This document shows, in pieces, positions 51,694 through 64,000 of a stretch of DNA of 64,000 bases. Below the pieces are notes generated by a model. That model saw only the letters and a program-made list of their open reading frames with translations. It was not told the DNA's origin and did no database searches. The DNA lies in the NCBI RefSeq assembly GCF_040790665.1, contig NZ_CP160849.1, positions 2,939,501-3,003,500 on the forward strand. Direction: 5' to 3'. The stretch's first letter is position 1. Each line of letters opens with the position of its first letter. The position numbers and the translations under genes were made by a program. Origin of the DNA: Sulfitobacter pontiacus (GTDB lineage: Bacteria; Pseudomonadota; Alphaproteobacteria; Rhodobacterales; Rhodobacteraceae).

Positions 51694-51790
51694 TTATGCC
51701 TGCGGCAAGGCCAGCGTCAGGGGCAAGCGCACCTGCCCCATGTAGAAAGCCCCGACCGCAAGTGAAACGCCAACCAATTGAAGCCCATAG
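51694..51790 (-). pseudogene. 3' stub of a chromosomal gene at the transposon edge
   Basis: Read on the minus strand, about 30 codons give LQLVGVSLAVGAFYMGQV and RLPLTLALPQA ending in TAA at 51694-51696. The composition is GC-rich like the chromosome, and the stretch reads like the last helix and tail of a membrane protein. Upstream, beyond about 51790, the sequence turns AT-rich and loses that character, and no start codon exists. The natural explanation is that the Tn7-like element entered this gene and split it; the rest would lie beyond the far transposon end. I do not recognise the family. Confidence 0.5.
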
Positions 51791-51949: not shown

Positions 51950-53788
51950 TTAGATATCTGCGATCCTGTAAAATTCCGCGTTTGCATCAGCAGGATTCCA
52001 AACTGGAAAAACCCCTCTCGCTTGTAAGTTGGTTCGTAGTCGATTTGGATCGCCACCCCAGTAGCCTTCTATCGAAGATAACTTTCGATAGCGCTCTTTG
52101 AAACGCGTCACACTATCTTGGTCGACAAGATTACGCATGACTCCCATATGACGGACGCGACCACTGACCTTTAATGGCGTCTCGCCTTTACCCTCTTCAG
52201 CAATTAACAAAAATTCAACCGTTTCAGCGCTCACACCGAGAGCCTTGGATGTCGCTGAAACGGTCATACCGCCCTCGCCCGTTCTCGCGCCGAGCTTGTA
52301 GGCAACTTCCTGAACGTTGATTAATACGGAGTTGAACTTCAGGTCCTCCGAGAGCAACTCGACATGTTCAAGCTGGCCTTGCAGCACCAGCGAAAGCACT
52401 TCCATCGATGAAACATTGAGTGCCTTTGCAACGTGGCCGATATCCATCATGCCTTTGTTCGGCACTCGAATGTCCTCCCCAAACCGCCGCATTTCAACAA
52501 TGAGCTGGTCAAGGTCGTCGACATCGACACCTTTATAGCGCGCTGTACGGTTTTCACCGTCTTCAACGACAGTTCTTAAGAAGCCTTTTTCCAGTAGCAA
52601 AGCGACCTGAGGCCGCGTGCACCCGATGCGCTCTGGAATCTTGGCGACTGGAATTGCGCGCTTCAACTTGGCAATTAGTTCTTCTGCTGGCTCCGCCTCA
52701 ACAGTTTGCCGACTATCTGCATGATATACATCTTTGGGCAACATACCCGACTGTGACAAAATATTGGCTACGGTTTTCGGGTGTACCCCCATTGATGTGG
52801 CTAGGGAGGCAACGGTATGCCGCCTTCGTTTTTCAACAACCCGTCCAAATAGTACAGCTCCGGGTTTGATCGGATAATGATCTAGGATAAATTCGCTTAG
52901 AGTATCCAAAATTGGGCCAACCGGCTTATCCGACTTTCTGAACTGCACCCATTGATAAAGCCTCCCAAATGTCCCTTGTGGTCCACATTTAACCGCGCCC
53001 TTTTGAGGCTTCGTGTATAGATACTCTAAGGCTTGCCGAATGCCCGCGTCACCATTTGAAGTAAACTCAAATCCGACCTGACCGGCTCGGTCCCAGTCGT
53101 CATCAGTCAGTTCTGGGAGTGACGCATGGGGACCATATTCAACACATACTCCCAACATTTCAGTCGCTTTACATGCAAGGTCGATCTGTTGGGCGTCCAA
53201 CCATGACGGCCCTGTGGCACCAGCAAAACGCGCAGTGACGTATTCTTGGAGAGCGGATGGTTTACGCTGTACTGAGTTACGCCAAAGCTCTTCCAAAGCT
53301 TTATGATCAGGTGTGTGTGCCCATACATTCAGCTCAAGGCCGCCCCCACTTTCACGAGGCTTCCTATATAATCCCACACCGTGGTGTTCACACGTTCTGA
53401 TCGCGCTAAAGGCCCAGTTGCTACGCCCAATACCAATGGGCATACCTCCCGGGCGTTCTGAAATATCAGACAACAGACACGCTGGGCAGAAGGTAACTTG
53501 GCTTCGCAGCAAAAATTCCTTGAAAAAGACCTCACCATTATATCGATAGAGGCGATCCGAAACATGCTGAAAACTTTTGGATGCCAGCTCATCCGCAGGC
53601 ATACCACAGATAGGCGATAGCCGGTCACAAATCTCGCGGCGACCCAAATTCAAATCTTGCTGCCTTAACCCGATAAATCTGAGGAAGTTGTCGAGTGATA
53701 ACCCGAAATGTAAATGTCCAAAACGGTGCAACCAGGAAATCAAGCTCTCACCTGGCTCGGGAAGTAAGCATGGCTTCAACAAGTCCAT
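51950..53788 (-). CDS. tniQ: TniQ/TnsD-family target-site protein
   Basis: A 612-residue TniQ-domain protein. The first 160 residues hold LLPEPGESLISWLHRFGHLHFGLSLDNFLRF and the zinc-binding FCPACL...CEHHG set typical of TniQ/TnsD. The rest contains several winged-helix or HTH-like segments (PKTVANILSQSG, KIPERIGCTRPQVALLLEKGFL, GVSAETVEFLLIAEEG). The length fits the TnsD type that recognises a fixed attachment site in DNA, unlike the short TniQ of CRISPR-associated elements. It starts directly after the tnsC stop (TGA-ATG). The target gene is unknown. Confidence 0.88.
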   Translation of the reverse strand: MDLLKPCLLPEPGESLISWLHRFGHLHFGLSLDNFLRFIGLRQQDLNLGRREICDRLSPICGMPADELASKSFQHVSDRLYRYNGEVFFKEFLLRSQVTFCPACLLSDISERPGGMPIGIGRSNWAFSAIRTCEHHGVGLYRKPRESGGGLELNVWAHTPDHKALEELWRNSVQRKPSALQEYVTARFAGATGPSWLDAQQIDLACKATEMLGVCVEYGPHASLPELTDDDWDRAGQVGFEFTSNGDAGIRQALEYLYTKPQKGAVKCGPQGTFGRLYQWVQFRKSDKPVGPILDTLSEFILDHYPIKPGAVLFGRVVEKRRRHTVASLATSMGVHPKTVANILSQSGMLPKDVYHADSRQTVEAEPAEELIAKLKRAIPVAKIPERIGCTRPQVALLLEKGFLRTVVEDGENRTARYKGVDVDDLDQLIVEMRRFGEDIRVPNKGMMDIGHVAKALNVSSMEVLSLVLQGQLEHVELLSEDLKFNSVLINVQEVAYKLGARTGEGGMTVSATSKALGVSAETVEFLLIAEEGKGETPLKVSGRVRHMGVMRNLVDQDSVTRFKERYRKLSSIEGYWGGDPNRLRTNLQARGVFPVWNPADANAEFYRIADI

Positions 53789-54787
53789 TCAGCGTCTCCC
53801 GACCTGACGGGTTTGCCGCTTGGTCCGCTCTGCTTCGAAATTTTCTGCATCCGTATCAAGCTCAATCGCGGCCCAATCAGTAGCGGCAAAGACGTTTTGC
53901 TCCCAGTCACATCCCTCCTGCATCCCCCAAGCTGTTGCGAAATGCTCCCATGTCAGAACTCGAGTTCCCTCCTCCAACGCGCTTTCGATAGCATTGATAA
54001 CCGTTTCAATTGCTCGACCAAAACGGTGTCGGCTTGCGTGGATCAAGCGAAGTGCCAATGTGTCATCGACCTCAGGTTTTAGCCCGACCTCCGCACAATA
54101 CTCCTCGATCATACTATAGAGCGGCCCCTCATCCACTCCCTGACATAAGGGCTTTGGTACGACCTTGGTTAGCCGCCGGTTCACTTGTTCATCAAAACGC
54201 GTGATTTCCGCCAGGCGTTGAGTGCCACTGAGAATGGGGATTACGGCGGAGTCATTCTGCATCAACGATTTCAACATTTTCAGCATATCGTCGATTTCAC
54301 GCGCAGAACCGGAGAGAAACATGTCGTGTGCTTCATCAAACCAGAGAACAACGATACCTAAAAGAGCGAGCCTGTGTCGGACGACCCCCCAGATTTCCCA
54401 GGCAGATGCTCTCGGTGATACGTCTACTAAACCTGTAGCTTTTAGGACCTCCCGACCGAGACTCTTCAGAGTAGCCGGGCTAGGAACTTGGATTCGCAGG
54501 AACTTCGGCGGGTCGCCTGCCGAAGTCGGTTTTAATACAGGGTGTGTTGATAGCACTCGATCCACAGCAGTCGTTTTGCCCGAACCCGAGCCTTCGATAA
54601 GGGCAATGCCGCGAGTTTCAAGGTTGCCTGTAAACCGCATCGGTTCAGCAATAAGGCTCCCTTCGTCGTCATGTTTTAAGAGCCGGTTTAGCTGCCGCAG
54701 AATTTCTTCGTCGCGCTCAGTAGAAATGTGATGACCCCGGAGTGTGGCGAGAGATTTTCTCCAGCTATGTTTTGCTACGCGGCCCAT
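53789..54787 (-). CDS. tnsC: TnsC/TniB-family AAA+ ATPase
   Basis: A 332-residue ATPase that links the target protein to the transposase in Tn7-like transposition. Walker A is GSGSGKT (residues 66-72), Walker B VVLWFDEAHD (about 147-156), and sensor 1 is in IPILSGTQRL. Its ATG shares one base with the original tnsB stop (TAATG). Translation would now have to start without intact tnsB ahead, because the IS separates them from the operon promoter. Confidence 0.9.
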   Translation of the reverse strand: MGRVAKHSWRKSLATLRGHHISTERDEEILRQLNRLLKHDDEGSLIAEPMRFTGNLETRGIALIEGSGSGKTTAVDRVLSTHPVLKPTSAGDPPKFLRIQVPSPATLKSLGREVLKATGLVDVSPRASAWEIWGVVRHRLALLGIVVLWFDEAHDMFLSGSAREIDDMLKMLKSLMQNDSAVIPILSGTQRLAEITRFDEQVNRRLTKVVPKPLCQGVDEGPLYSMIEEYCAEVGLKPEVDDTLALRLIHASRHRFGRAIETVINAIESALEEGTRVLTWEHFATAWGMQEGCDWEQNVFAATDWAAIELDTDAENFEAERTKRQTRQVGRR

Positions 54788-54960
54788 TATTGATCTCCCT
54801 TTTCGATTTTCCAGCTTTTCTTCATGGTCGTTTCTGGTTTCGCCGGAGCAGGACGTGTTGATTTCGTAGGTGTAGCCTCAAGCCGGGCTTCTGAAGGTTG
54901 CAATGTTCGGCCGAACTGGCTCGAAGCACTTGTGGTAGGAGCTTCTGTTCCAGCAATATT
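54787..54960 (-). pseudogene. tnsB: displaced 3' end of tnsB
   Basis: In the frame that continues from tnsB once the IS is removed, this stretch encodes about 56 residues: NIAGTEAPTTSASSQFGRTL, a Ser/Thr/Pro-rich linker, and the basic end KKSWKIEKGDQ, followed by TAA overlapping the tnsC ATG. Joined to the main part it gives a TnsB of about 737 residues. The tail is low-complexity with a short conserved end, as in TnsB-type proteins where the C-terminus binds TnsC. Confidence 0.85.
54953..54960. repeat. left target-site duplication of the IS256-family element
   Basis: GCAATATT at 54953-54960 is repeated at 56278-56285, directly outside both IS ends. An 8-bp duplication is normal for IS256 elements. 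Confidence 0.92.
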
Positions 54961-54988
54961 GAGACTGTGCAGAATTTTGTGCGTGACG
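54961..54988 (+). repeat. left terminal inverted repeat of the IS256-family element
   Basis: The left end (GAGACTGTGCAGAATTTTG, then TGCG) matches the reverse complement of 56249-56277 (GGGACTATCCTGAATTTTG, then TGCG) at most positions. Confidence 0.88.
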
Positions 54989-54995
54989 CGTTTTC

Positions 54996-56219
54996 TTACG
55001 CCATCGGGAAGCGGTCTTCGAACATGATGGCAAGCTGAGATCTGACAGCGTGCCATTCGCGGACCGAACGCTTCCACTCGGTCGATGTAGCATTGAGCGC
55101 CAGATAGATCAATTTCGCCGCAGCGTCGTCGCTTGGGAAATGACCTCGGGTTCTGACGGCACGGCGAATTTTCGAGTTCAAGGCCTCAATGGAATTCGTG
55201 GTGTAGATCAGCCTGCGGACCTCGGGCGGGTAATCGAGGAACGGGATGACCTCGTTCCAGGCCCGGCGCCAGCTCGGCGCGATCGCCGGATACTGCCTTG
55301 CCAGATCGCTGTCCTCGAACTCAGCCAGAGCCAGTTCTGCCGCCTCGACGTCCACGGCCGTGTAGATCGCCTTTAGGGCGGCGGCGACGGCCTTGCGGTC
55401 CCTGTAGCTGGCGAAGTTCATGGAATGGCGCAGCAGATGGACGATGCAGGTCTGGACCCGAGTCTGGGGGAATGCGGCCTCGATGGCCTGGGGAAAGCCC
55501 TTCAGCCCGTCCACGACGGCGATGAGGATGTCCTGGACGCCCCTGTTGCGCAGGTCGCTGAGCACTTTGGCCCAGAACTTCGCGCCCTCATTGGCCTGAA
55601 ACCACAGGCCCAGAACGTCCCGCGTGCCATCCGGCAGCACCGCGAGGGCCACGAAGACCGCCTTGTTCGAGACCGCCCCGTCGCTGCGGATATTGACCCG
55701 GATCGCGTCCATGAAGACGATCGGATAGCAGGGATCCAGCGGGCGGTTCTGCCAGGCGGTGACCTCCTCCATGACCGCGTCGGTGATCGCGGAAATCAGG
55801 CTGGGCGAGGCCTCGACGCCGTAGATTTCCTCGATATGCCCCTGGATCTCTCGGGTCGTCATTCCCCGGGCATACATGCTGACAATCTTGCGGTCGAATT
55901 CAGGAAAGCGCCGCTGATACTTCGCGATCAGCATCGGATCGAAGGTGCCGTTCCGGTCGCGGGGAATGTCCAGAACCACCTTGCCGCTGTCCATGGTCAC
56001 GGTCTTCTGGCTGCTGCCATTGCGCCGATTGGGCGGCTGGTTCTGGCCCTCAGACGCATCATCTGCGCGCTCTTCATCGAGATGGACATCCATCTCTGTG
56101 CTCAGCGCGCGTTCCGCCAGCGCCTTGGTCAGCTCCGCCAGGATGCCGTTCTTGCCAAACAGGTCACCGGGTGAACGCCCTTCCATCAGACGGTCTAGCA
56201 AGTCTTTGTCGATGCTCAT
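54996..56219 (-). CDS. IS256-family transposase
   Basis: A 407-residue DDE (mutator-type) transposase. The acidic triad is in VFMDAIRVN, AVVDGLKGF and TTNSIEALNSKIRR, all conserved in IS256 enzymes. The helical insertion between second Asp and Glu carries the CIVHLLRHS motif. The ATG at 56219 (MSIDKDLLDRLMEGRSPG) is chosen as the usual start; an upstream in-frame start would enter the left-over linker. The gene is intact and could be active. Confidence 0.95.
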   Translation of the reverse strand: MSIDKDLLDRLMEGRSPGDLFGKNGILAELTKALAERALSTEMDVHLDEERADDASEGQNQPPNRRNGSSQKTVTMDSGKVVLDIPRDRNGTFDPMLIAKYQRRFPEFDRKIVSMYARGMTTREIQGHIEEIYGVEASPSLISAITDAVMEEVTAWQNRPLDPCYPIVFMDAIRVNIRSDGAVSNKAVFVALAVLPDGTRDVLGLWFQANEGAKFWAKVLSDLRNRGVQDILIAVVDGLKGFPQAIEAAFPQTRVQTCIVHLLRHSMNFASYRDRKAVAAALKAIYTAVDVEAAELALAEFEDSDLARQYPAIAPSWRRAWNEVIPFLDYPPEVRRLIYTTNSIEALNSKIRRAVRTRGHFPSDDAAAKLIYLALNATSTEWKRSVREWHAVRSQLAIMFEDRFPMA

Positions 56220-56248
56220 ACGTGGGTCTCCTCTGTGAGCAGTTACCA

Positions 56249-56277
56249 CGTCAGCGCACAAAATTCAGGATAGTCCC
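56249..56277 (-). repeat. right terminal inverted repeat of the IS256-family element
   Basis: It is the inverted partner of 54961-54988. The outermost bases read GGGACTATCC on the minus strand and abut the target duplication at 56278. Confidence 0.88.
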
Positions 56278-58325
56278 GCAATATTGAAACCGCAGAAAAG
56301 AGCTTCTTCAGCAGACGCAATGCGCTCTGAATTCCAAGGCTGTGTAATTAAACCGAACTCCAGAGTACGTTCGCCATTCATATTTTGAATGGCACAAATA
56401 GCGTTGCACACGACATCGTCGCGCCATTTAAGCTTCGCGGGGTCGCTTGTCTTCAAGCTGCGCCGCGCTGTGAGCCATTGCTGCGCATGCACCCCATCGA
56501 AAATACCAAGCACAGCCTGTACCTGATGCCACTCATCACCCAAGCGAACTTCGACGGCACCGATATCATTGGCCAGCCATCGTACATTCAAATCCTGCTT
56601 ACCAAATTTGTTGTACCAATTCGAAAGCATCTCCGAGTGGTATTTGACACCGAGAACTGTCACACCGTATTTATCCAGCTGCCGTTCAACTGTTGTACCA
56701 AAAGCGAGCCGGTCATTGCGTACGGATGGGCTTGCTTTCAACGGATAGTTGCCAACTTTCATGTCATCTTCCCATTGTTCGAGCGGTGTTTTACCTCCCA
56801 AGCCCGAGTGTGGCGTATTATGGTAAATATCTACAATCCACCGGACAAGGGCGAAACAAAGGTCCTCAGGCTTCAGACAGGCTCGTGCCTCTGCAGGATG
56901 ACTTCCTTTTTCCAGTACGGACGAGAACGTTCGGCCGTTCAACCGAGGCAAAAGGCCCATCGACGCTGTTCGGAAAAGGCGTTCTACGGTTCCCCTCATA
57001 CTTGGCAATCCAGCAATTGAACGTTCATGAGTGATGCCCAAGTCGCTACACGCGGCCAAGAAATTCAATGCTTTGAAGGCTGATCCATTATCGGTCACCA
57101 GCGTCTCTGGTGTAGCAGCCATATGCCATCCCGAAACAGCGCCGACGGCATCCGCCCAATCGCCTTTGTCGGAGGTCGTCATGCGGAGACAGTCAAGAGC
57201 TGCGCAGGAAGTCGGATTAAGGGTCAATTTCATACCCAAAACGCAGCGTGTCCGACAATCGATAGATGCCGTGATCCACCAGCGTCCCGATTTATCGTCG
57301 AGACCTAAACGTTGAAGCTCTTCCATCGTAAAGAGCGACTTGAGCCCTGAACCGGCCAGAATGGTGATCAAATCGATATTCCACTCATCCATCTCTACTC
57401 GTTCATATGGACGATAGACCTGCAACCCAGAGCTAACCGGTTTAAACATCTTTACTGCCTCTTCGTGCCCTTTCCTCTTCAAAACCACTTGGAACTTATC
57501 AATACTGCCGATTGCGTTGCGAACAGCTTGGCGAGAAGGAACTCGATGCGGTGTCAAGCCTTGAGCTTTGCGTTTCAGGTTCTCGTTGTGGAATGCTACT
57601 TTGACGTCGTCTGCCGTAGTCTTTTGGGATGGCCGGTTCAGCGATAGATAGCTTTCGTAAACAGTGCGCATCAGTAGCTCCTTCTCCTCGGCACTGAAGT
57701 AGCTTGTCCGGTTCCCTCGATTTGCAACGGAGTCGGCCAAACCTGTCATTCCGAAATCGTTGAACAAAGCGAGCCATTTTCGAAGCGTTCGCGGATGCAC
57801 AGGCGCTACCGACGGTGTGACGCACCCGCCACGAGGTTTTCGACGCAAACCATCGCGAATTTCGTTTTCGCGCAAAATTGTTTCAGGGCTTGGAGCCTCC
57901 TCTAACAAGAACGCTTGTGCGCGCCGACAAATTTCGGGCATATTCTCTTCAATCGAAGCATCATTCACTGACACAAGCGCTTCATCCCGCATTTCCACCA
58001 AAGCTGAAACCAAAGCGTGCCTTACATGAAGCCGCTTACGTTGTTTGACGGAAAGATGCGACATTTGAGTGCTAACGCCTGTAGGACGATGCGCCGCCAC
58101 ATCAGGGTTATAGAAATCAGGCTCATGCAAAATCTGTTTGCTAGCGTTCAAGCGAGAAAGAAGGCCAAAATCAAATGTTTCTGAGATGCCTGATCCGTCT
58201 GCATCCATCAAGACATAGCCATTTCGTGTTTGATGCGCCAAGCGCAAAGCACGCCCTCGGATCGTGATCTTGTCGTGAGGCTTGATGTGAAAACGGCCAA
58301 AGTAGGTTTCAGAGTAGCTGGTCAT
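56265..58325 (-). CDS. tnsB: TnsB/TniA-family DDE transposase, C-terminus cut by an IS
   Basis: A 686-residue remaining part of the transposase that cuts the 3' ends and joins them to the target. N-terminal HTH domains (PRTLRKWLALFNDFGMTGL, about 178-197) bind the transposon ends. The RNase-H-like core has the triad D313 (VEMDEWN), D412 (LVTDNGSAF) and E448 (GTVERLF) with a DD-35-E spacing. A beta-barrel follows up to about 610. The last two residues (LS) and stop come from the IS; 53 natural residues are lost. Its start overlaps the tnsA stop by 4 nt. Catalysis might be intact but coupling to TnsC is probably lost. Confidence 0.92.
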   Translation of the reverse strand: MTSYSETYFGRFHIKPHDKITIRGRALRLAHQTRNGYVLMDADGSGISETFDFGLLSRLNASKQILHEPDFYNPDVAAHRPTGVSTQMSHLSVKQRKRLHVRHALVSALVEMRDEALVSVNDASIEENMPEICRRAQAFLLEEAPSPETILRENEIRDGLRRKPRGGCVTPSVAPVHPRTLRKWLALFNDFGMTGLADSVANRGNRTSYFSAEEKELLMRTVYESYLSLNRPSQKTTADDVKVAFHNENLKRKAQGLTPHRVPSRQAVRNAIGSIDKFQVVLKRKGHEEAVKMFKPVSSGLQVYRPYERVEMDEWNIDLITILAGSGLKSLFTMEELQRLGLDDKSGRWWITASIDCRTRCVLGMKLTLNPTSCAALDCLRMTTSDKGDWADAVGAVSGWHMAATPETLVTDNGSAFKALNFLAACSDLGITHERSIAGLPSMRGTVERLFRTASMGLLPRLNGRTFSSVLEKGSHPAEARACLKPEDLCFALVRWIVDIYHNTPHSGLGGKTPLEQWEDDMKVGNYPLKASPSVRNDRLAFGTTVERQLDKYGVTVLGVKYHSEMLSNWYNKFGKQDLNVRWLANDIGAVEVRLGDEWHQVQAVLGIFDGVHAQQWLTARRSLKTSDPAKLKWRDDVVCNAICAIQNMNGERTLEFGLITQPWNSERIASAEEALFCGFNIAGLS

Positions 58326-58996
58326 TGTACGACCTCCATTTTGTTTACGAGAGTTTTGGGGTTGATAATTTCATGGTTCACAGGACGGAGATGATGATCC
58401 CGAACTAAACGGAGCAGAGCACGGTAGCCCTTCTCGTTTAGACCGGTCCTGACGGTTAGATCCCGAAGCGAAAGAGCTCCCGAAAGTTCAGATACGGTCT
58501 TCAAGGCAATGCGATCTGCTTCGGAATCAAGTTCGCGAACAGCCGCTAACTGCCTAGCGTTATTTTCGCTGATTGGATCGATGTCCCTCTCAGTGACCAA
58601 CCTGACCTCGTCACAGAATCCGGCATCAAGCGCATGACGTGTAACGTCCTGCATTTCTGCAAGAAATTTGCCGGAGAGAAGACGGACCTCAGGTTTGACG
58701 GTAAAGGCAATCTTGCGGCCATCGACGAAAACCGCGATAATGTCGAAGTAGTGTTTTTTGTGACTTGCACCCTCGCACCATTCGAAGAGCACCTGCTCTT
58801 TGATTTGCGCGACACCTGGCAAGTCATTCACCACAAACAAGGTACGCAGTTCGAGATGGGACTCCGCCTGAAATCGACGGCCGTTGTCACTTCCTAAAAT
58901 GACATGAGCCGTACAGTGGCCTTTGGAGGCCTTCGCAATAGATCGATCTGCCTGCGAAGCGGCAGGTAGTCGAATACCGGCTGTATTGGTATACAT
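58322..58996 (-). CDS. tnsA: TnsA-family endonuclease
   Basis: A 224-residue restriction-enzyme-fold nuclease that cuts the 5' ends of the element, so transposition is cut-and-paste. With the ATG at 58996 as residue 1, the acidic/lysine set is E49 (SHLELRT), D85 (HYFDIIAVFVDGRK) and K101 (FTVKPE). The C-terminal winged helix (LSLRDLTVRTGLNEKGYRALLRLVRDHHLRP) is also seen. The ATG at 58996 has GGGGAAG upstream. It is the first gene of the tns operon. Confidence 0.85.
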   Translation of the reverse strand: MYTNTAGIRLPAASQADRSIAKASKGHCTAHVILGSDNGRRFQAESHLELRTLFVVNDLPGVAQIKEQVLFEWCEGASHKKHYFDIIAVFVDGRKIAFTVKPEVRLLSGKFLAEMQDVTRHALDAGFCDEVRLVTERDIDPISENNARQLAAVRELDSEADRIALKTVSELSGALSLRDLTVRTGLNEKGYRALLRLVRDHHLRPVNHEIINPKTLVNKMEVVQ

Positions 58997-59011
58997 TTTT
59001 CTTCCCCACAC

Positions 59012-62132: not shown

Positions 62133-63170
62133 TTACCTTTGTCGGCCATACAACTTGCGGAGCTCAACCACTCGCTCCATGGTCTTCTTCATTTGCACAT
62201 TGTCCGGCTCAATGTGTTCCCAAAATCGTGCTCTTCCTTCCAATTGCTCAATATAATTTGGAAAGAAAATTCTGCGTCGCGCTACGTGGCTAGATAATCC
62301 TGACGACCAGACGAAATACACGTCTCGTTTCAAATCACGGCGGAACTGCCTTGTCGGTCTCGGCTTGCCGGAGGTTATATCCAAGCCGGTTACGATCTTC
62401 TTGTCGCCTTCACACAAGAAACGAACTTTTTTCTCATTAACTTGGAAACCCTCACTAGCAATAACTTCGAAGAACAGTCTCCTAATCCCTTTGGGGATGG
62501 CTTTTCCAGAGATAACGATGTCATCCGCATACCTAGTGTATCTCAAACGCCTGGACTTGCAGATCTTCATGATCCTTTGATCCAAATCTCGGCAAATTAT
62601 ATTGCTTAGAAGTGGGCTAGATGCGGCTCCTTGCGGTAACTTTCGATCCAATGTGCAGAGGTTTGCCAGCAGAAAGGCTACATTCGAGGGATATCCGAAA
62701 TCAATAAAAACCTTAACCACCCTCGAAAAACCAATAGAGGGGAAAAAGTCCTTAAGGTCTATCTTGAGGACTTCCTTTCTGCCGCAATGCACGAGTGCGT
62801 TATCTAAAATAGAGACGCCTTCTCGATATCCAGTAGAGCAAACCGGCAGTCTGACCGAAGAAAGCACTTCACCGACTATCCAGCGCTGCACTTCAAGCAG
62901 TGATGGATAGGGGGCTTGAATTTCTCGCAAGCCTCCTGATCTCTTTCTGATCTTGAAACTTCGGTAGTAACTCTTGGCTCCAAATCCCATCGCGCTAAGG
63001 TCAGCCGGATTTCGCCCAACTAATACCGCTAGGTGGGAAGACTCAAAAATGGGTGGAACCCCATTTGAAATGCAGCGCCTTATATATGGCGTATAAGAGC
63101 GCACCAAATCACTTCGTAGCCCTATGTCTTCGAAATACTGATGCCACTTGTATAGTAAATTGTCGTTCAT
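62133..63170 (-). CDS. retron-type reverse transcriptase
   Basis: A 345-residue reverse transcriptase that would copy the adjacent ncRNA into branched msDNA. The retron-specific X motif NAxxH is NALVH (124-128), motif A is LKIDLKDFFPSI (about 135-146), LPQGAASSP (178-186) precedes motif C YTRYADDIVIS (YADD 214-217), and the Y motif VTG is at 260-262. Length and the absence of maturase, Cas or integrase domains support a stand-alone retron RT. The ATG at 63170 lies three nt after the a2 repeat of the ncRNA. It belongs to an operon with the two upstream genes. Confidence 0.92.
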   Translation of the reverse strand: MNDNLLYKWHQYFEDIGLRSDLVRSYTPYIRRCISNGVPPIFESSHLAVLVGRNPADLSAMGFGAKSYYRSFKIRKRSGGLREIQAPYPSLLEVQRWIVGEVLSSVRLPVCSTGYREGVSILDNALVHCGRKEVLKIDLKDFFPSIGFSRVVKVFIDFGYPSNVAFLLANLCTLDRKLPQGAASSPLLSNIICRDLDQRIMKICKSRRLRYTRYADDIVISGKAIPKGIRRLFFEVIASEGFQVNEKKVRFLCEGDKKIVTGLDITSGKPRPTRQFRRDLKRDVYFVWSSGLSSHVARRRIFFPNYIEQLEGRARFWEHIEPDNVQMKKTMERVVELRKLYGRQR

Positions 63171-63173
63171 AGC

Positions 63174-63398
63174 GTGGCCACCGCTACCAGATCTCTTCGA
63201 TGCTCGCATCGCTTACGCCTGAAATTCGATGAATTTCCATTTTCAGCATTGAAAATTGAAATTTCATCGTATTTCGGGCCTGCCGACGCAAGGAGGCACA
63301 GTAACACTTTCTTGAGAAACTCAAGAAATGTTACTGTAAGGCTTTCGCCCACCTTAACCGTAGAAGCGACTACACTTCTAAACGCTAGCGGTGACCAC
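63174..63398 (-). ncRNA. retron msr-msd RNA
   Basis: On the minus strand the 13-nt a1 repeat GTGGTCACCGCTA (63398-63386) and the a2 repeat TAGCGGTGGCCAC (63186-63174) pair fully with one G-U. Directly after a1, TAGCG contains the expected branching G (63385). The msr part shows a TAGAAG/CTTCTA hairpin (63361-63380) and a GGC-GAAA-GCC hairpin (63340-63349). The msd part has a 34-nt hairpin GTAACA...TGTTAC (63301-63334) and a 55-nt hairpin GAAAT...ATTTC (63221-63275). The layout and position upstream of the RT gene match known retrons. Confidence 0.88.
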
Positions 63399-63422: not shown

Positions 63423-63782
63423 TTAGTCTCCTCCAATCCCAAAGTAGCGCTGCGATAGCTTTGAAACTCTAGGAGCGTATGGTTCAAACGGACTGATCTT
63501 GCTGCCCTTGAAGCGTTCTGGCACCTCTCTCCAAGTTTTCTTACCTCTGAAAGCAAACATTTCTTGATTGGCCTGAATCCAAGAAAGCCCAGCCTTCGTA
63601 AGGTGCAAAGAAACGCCTTTCGCGGCGATGAGGTTGAACTTTGTCAGGTTCCTAGTTGCCCTTGATAGGTCTTTAATCGAGACGCCGAACTTCAAGGTCA
63701 ACGAGGAAATGGTCACACCACCTTCTCCTCTGCGGGCCTGATCCAAAATTCTCAATTCAAGGGAGGATAGGCGATTTGTCAT
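63423..63782 (-). CDS. winged-helix-like DNA-binding protein of the retron operon
   Basis: A 119-residue protein with a helix-turn-helix pattern at about residues 6-60 (LSSLELRILDQARRGEGGVTISSLTLKFGVSIKDLSRATRNLTKFNLI, then a wing with LHLTKAGL). The rest is basic and aromatic. Its start overlaps the preceding gene's stop by 4 nt (ATGA) and its stop is 24 nt before the retron RNA. Several retron types carry a separate winged-helix protein together with an enzyme effector (nucleoside deoxyribosyltransferase- or phosphoribosyltransferase-like); this fits that layout. The assignment to a fold is from pattern alone. Confidence 0.65.
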   Translation of the reverse strand: MTNRLSSLELRILDQARRGEGGVTISSLTLKFGVSIKDLSRATRNLTKFNLIAAKGVSLHLTKAGLSWIQANQEMFAFRGKKTWREVPERFKGSKISPFEPYAPRVSKLSQRYFGIGGD

Positions 63783-64000
63783 AACTCGCTCCTATAGACG
63801 AGTGTATCTCGTGGCTTTCCACGCCAATCTTCTGGCCACCAGAGAATTGGGAAGTTGGAATTGGGTGCATTGTGTCCCTTTAGACAAAACAAAGCCTCTG
63901 CTCGCCCGTAGCCAAAGCTCGGAAGCATTTTTCCGTCGATTATTTGCGCCAAACCAGATTCAAGTCGATTCATGTGACAAGATTTCACGCCTAGCTCTGT
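63779..64000 (-). CDS. C-terminal part of an unidentified protein, probable retron effector (runs off the right edge)
   Basis: The last ~73 codons of a gene whose start lies beyond the window; the frame is open to the edge. The end contains SGLAQIIDGKMLPSFGYGRAE, a CLKGHN segment and PILWWPEDWRGKPRDTLVYRS. I do not recognise the domain. The gene overlaps the winged-helix gene by 4 nt and precedes the retron RNA and RT, where effectors commonly are. Confidence 0.6.
   Translation of the reverse strand, partial: TELGVKSCHMNRLESGLAQIIDGKMLPSFGYGRAEALFCLKGHNAPNSNFPILWWPEDWRGKPRDTLVYRSEL

Follow-up and report, generated by a model that had tools for sequence, protein, structure and literature searches.

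We wondered whether a reverse transcriptase (RT) gene and a pair of short repeats in Sulfitobacter pontiacus form a functional retron and, if so, of which type and with what effector. The window, meaning the whole 64,000-nt stretch of DNA that was analysed, ends inside a phosphoribosyltransferase (PRTase) gene, the rest of which was read from the neighbouring contig. An initial annotation had placed a retron at 62133-63398. This span covers the RT and its RNA but omits effector genes of the same operon, namely the type-defining genes for the PRTase and a winged-helix protein, which had been overlooked. Read 5' to 3' on the minus strand, the operon has the order PRTase - winged helix - msr/msd - RT (Table 1). 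The PRTase stop and the winged-helix start overlap by 4 bases (ATGA), and the a1 repeat is located 24 nt past the winged-helix stop. A second possible RT start, the in-frame ATG at 63209 (62133-63209, 358 aa), lies within the ncRNA. Further upstream of the retron are two small minus-strand genes of 160 and 193 aa (L003:1536-2918, corresponding to window 65035-66417) that were matched by no NCBIfam or PADLOC model.

Table 1. Features of the retron operon and of the neighbouring Tn7-like gene set (window coordinates)
Feature	Position	Strand	Remarks
PRTase gene, C-terminal part within window	63779..64000	-	effector
Whole PRTase gene	63779-64612 = L003:280-1113	-	277 aa, start outside window
Winged-helix gene	63423..63782	-	119 aa
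a1 repeat GTGGTCACCGCTA	63386..63398	-	no equal among 1000 dinucleotide shuffles
Putative branching G (2'-5' linkage)	63385	-	first base after a1, context CTA-G-C; position inferred
Conserved msr hairpin	63361..63380	-	core GAAGTG-TAGT-CGCTTC; compensatory stem changes across relatives
msr core	63331..63391	-	covariance model built without window sequence
Predicted msd	63188..63337	-	template for ~150 nt msDNA; both ends inferred by Retron-Eco1 analogy
a2 repeat TAGCGGTGGCCAC	63174..63186	-	end 3 nt upstream of ATG 63170
Retron RT	62133..63170	-	345 aa; Pfam RVT_1, PADLOC RT_III-A 406 bits, clade 99/99
TniQ-like	51950-53788	-	
TniB-like	53789-54787	-	
IS256/Mutator-family transposase	54996-56261		between TniB and TnsB
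TnsB-like rve protein	56265-58325	-	
TnsA-like	58322-59011	-	

The RT carries all three motifs that had been read from its translation (NALVH, YADD and VTG), and its best matches in PADLOC and NCBIfam were retron models. The PADLOC model RT_III-A scored 406 bits and the next-best type 246 bits. Group II intron and DRT enzymes were considered as candidates and rejected: in profile searches the group II intron model reached 42.6 bits and the DRT models about 40 bits, so that neither family came above 43 bits. Phylogenetic placement, named as a check in the initial annotation, put the RT inside a PRTase-retron clade of 18 rows (support 99/99) that contains every PRTase-associated RT found. An adjacent PRTase is present in 17 of the 18 members, the exception being a locus that is cut by a contig end (L015). 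The nearest relative is the RT of Rhizobium skierniewicense (55% identity, tree support 100/99).

We then asked whether the RNA that accompanies this RT is equally convincing. The repeats a1 and a2 pair, as had been described, over 13 bp, one of them G-U; when the region was shuffled 1000 times with dinucleotides preserved, a helix of equal score at the allowed spacing did not arise once. The enclosed 226 nt RNA folds with -106.5 kcal/mol compared to -60.4 kcal/mol for shuffles (z about -10). Two details of the earlier description needed adjustment. The motif TAGC had been placed directly after a1; a G does follow a1 immediately, but the preceding TA belongs to the 13-bp helix. Likewise, two msd hairpins are present, but in the predicted msDNA fold they extend over 63298-63337 (about 40 nt) and 63217-63279 (63 nt); the lengths of 34 and 55 nt given earlier presumably describe their inner parts. 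A small third hairpin is predicted at 63198-63211, and the predicted 150-nt msDNA, when folded as DNA, has a z of -9.6.

We looked for relatives by scanning genomes, by searching plasmids and by going through genomes of the same family, class and phylum, and obtained 17 distinct ones in which PRTase and RT are arranged as here. A homologue of the winged-helix protein was seen in about half of them using a single-sequence search. Near the RT start all 17 form an a1/a2 helix, 7-19 bp long, in which the sequences are unrelated and the pairing is kept, and in each this outer helix is part of the minimum-energy fold. In most relatives TAG follows right after a1, which is the sequence context of the putative branching G. 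Downstream of a1, a hairpin of the form GAAGTG-nAGT-CGCTTC (or GAGGCG-nAGT-CGCCTC and similar) recurs from Alphaproteobacteria to Bacteroidota; 96% of its cells pair and three of its pairs show compensatory changes. In Rhizobium skierniewicense (L004:3530-4365) the PRTase frame is broken near the C-terminus and continues in another frame, whereas the winged helix, ncRNA and RT beside it appear intact; this could be the result of decay, of a sequencing error or of frameshifting.

The conserved msr made an independent search feasible. An Rfam scan of the window at gathering threshold returned tRNA only and no retron RNA. A covariance model built from the msr of the 17 relatives, with the window excluded, matched 63331-63391 with 42.2 bits (E 4e-8), as the single match in the window and in the whole genome to which it belongs. 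Across 289 sampled genomes of the class, all hits of the model fell in systems for which the RT was known beforehand. One might argue that the RT is a non-retron enzyme of the DRT/Abi, DGR or group II intron type lying next to repeats that arose by chance. We found nothing in its favour. Profiles and tree already refute this idea, the conserved msr was recovered independently and no shuffle matched the a1/a2 helix, leaving it practically no chance of being correct. The reading of the RT as a retron RT, as initially annotated, is thus borne out by the PADLOC score, the PRTase-retron clade and an msr homologous to that of the 17 relatives.

The effector genes point to the same type. The PADLOC model PRTase_III-A scored 245 bits for the PRTase, and WH_III-A scored 83 bits (E 3e-24) for the winged-helix protein. 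The PRTase retains a PRPP-loop-like motif (VDDFAGTGST) and family-invariant columns, including D93, K103 and an FP-x-x-WW motif. Its structure, predicted from the alignment version without plasmid rows, shows a type I PRTase fold (pLDDT 94) and is closest to HGPRT and orotate PRTases in structure comparison (Z about 12-13). At the level of sequence the best PDB profile match has an E of 0.02; as sequence alone thus barely reaches solved PRTases, the protein is far from the housekeeping enzymes.

With type III-A defined by the PADLOC models (classification of Mestre et al., 2020 as used there) and PMC12548924, the locus is a retron of this known type and not a new type, its layout and RNA matching those of at least 17 relatives. 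It shares with type III-A retrons the combination of PRTase, winged helix, RT and msr-msd in one operon, the high-scoring protein profiles, and the a1/a2 helix and msr hairpin common to the 17 relatives found. It differs from them in an RT that is at most 55% identical to any found, in its own msd hairpin sequences and in the absence of the U-run that follows a2 in 7 relatives. Among solved structures the top RT match is Retron-Kva2 (36ht, E 1e-39), a type IX retron that differs in type and effector, and the PADLOC score for RT_IX is 203 bits against 406 for RT_III-A. The RT is also homologous to that of the type II-A Retron-Eco1 (Ec86; PDB 7v9u, E 5e-39). The context of the branching G is similar in both, TTAGC in Retron-Eco1 (CCCTTAGC) and CTAGC here, and a2 ends near the RT start in Retron-Eco1 too. 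However, the Retron-Eco1 RT falls outside the type III-A clade, and its effector is nucleoside deoxyribosyltransferase-like instead of a PRTase with a winged helix.

How might such an operon act? It holds four apparently intact components in canonical order, with a conserved foldable ncRNA and a PRTase fold. We infer msDNA production and an anti-phage role by analogy with other retrons, and consider it very probable that this is a complete type III-A retron operon that works through msDNA synthesis, effector sequestration and abortive infection. As expected from its family, the RT would bind the msr hairpin, prime at the 2'-OH of G63385 beside the a1/a2 helix and copy the msd into a branched msDNA of about 150 nt that contains two long hairpins. 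RT and msDNA would then form a complex that silences the PRTase/winged-helix pair, and this hold would be lost once the msDNA is altered or removed by a phage factor. In other retron types, DNA methylation, SSB binding and msDNA degradation serve as triggers (PMC13158370). The freed PRTase would then halt growth or kill the cell, its target probably being a nucleotide or a PRPP-linked metabolite; phosphoribosyltransferases are listed in the same review among the retron effectors yet to be characterised (PMC13158370).

Two type III-A retrons, Retron-Bpu1 and Retron-Ppe1, have been isolated by their RT-DNA bands (PMC12548924). Retron-Bpu1 made RT-DNA and protected against 0 of 12 phages, and transformation of Retron-Ppe1 into E. 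coli failed (PMC12548924). We found no demonstration of anti-phage activity of type III-A in the literature searched, which includes PMC12548924. This, together with the lack of protection by Retron-Bpu1, would fit a retron that makes msDNA and has no role in defence, with RT-DNA acting as cofactor or regulator and the PRTase and winged helix serving nucleotide metabolism or gene regulation. Yet PRTase, winged helix and RT are kept together across phyla, and the PRTase is distant from housekeeping PRTases. Moreover, the operon is rare and patchy, as expected for mobile defence genes: it was not found in a same-genus genome (G055), and close relatives occur in few genomes. A role outside defence therefore strikes us as improbable, and we favour the abortive infection model. 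Comparison with the same-genus genome allowed no empty insertion site to be named because the right flank is not syntenic.

The retron lies 3-10 kb from a Tn7-like gene set on the minus strand (window 51950-59011; Table 1). Short repeats containing ACCAATT are located at 51769, 51865 and 59224, and a search for the ends of the element gave no convincing pair of terminal repeats. Retrons are known cargo of Tn7-like elements (PMC8649781, Table 1 therein), and the present one may be such cargo.

Finally, we considered the junction between a2 and the RT gene. The gap of 3 nt holds for the start at 63170; with the ATG at 63209 the open reading frame would traverse a2. The tight spacing had been noted as something that may couple RNA folding to RT translation; as a peculiarity of this locus it finds no support, as it is a general trait common to 18 type III-A systems and to Retron-Eco1 (6 nt). 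The gap ranges from -17 to +20 nt across the 18 systems. L004 and L029, both close relatives, have their RT start codon within a2 itself. At least five T follow directly after a2 in 7 of the 18 systems (L006, L007, L008, L009, L010, L011 and L045) compared to 0.19 expected, an excess that was noticed by inspection and counted in the same systems in which it was spotted. Together, the a1/a2 helix and the U-run look, by sequence, like an intrinsic terminator just before the RT gene. None of the 18 systems, this one with its ATG 63170 included, has an SD-like 4-mer among the 15 nt that precede the RT start. Bacteroidota often do without SD sequences, and since most of these systems are from Bacteroidota this part of the argument is weak; the U-run is the stronger evidence. 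We speculate, while regarding it as rather unlikely, that the type III-A a1/a2 helix doubles as a switch of RT expression, with folding of the ncRNA ending or silencing the RT message. If so, template RNA and RT would be made in a fixed ratio. The S. pontiacus copy has the spacing but lacks the U-run.

As no SD-like 4-mer precedes the start at 63170, the level of RT expression is uncertain. Along with the end of a2 only 3 nt upstream and the broken PRTase frame in the nearest relative, this might be taken to mean that the operon is decayed or silent here, its frames intact and its expression blocked by an RT start and ribosome binding site buried in a2. All frames are open, however, and conservation is seen in the a1/a2 helix, in the msr hairpin and in the PRPP-loop-like motif; nor is the a2/RT arrangement a sign of decay, because all 18 systems share it. 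We thus hold a decayed or silent operon to be very improbable and retain the reading as an intact one.

By itself, this locus leaves existing knowledge of retrons unchanged. What type III-A, with its effector yet to be characterised, gains from it is an intact member that is annotated in full and whose msDNA can be predicted. These data further indicate that the msr of type III-A retrons has one hairpin conserved from Alphaproteobacteria to Bacteroidota, which is usable as a search model.
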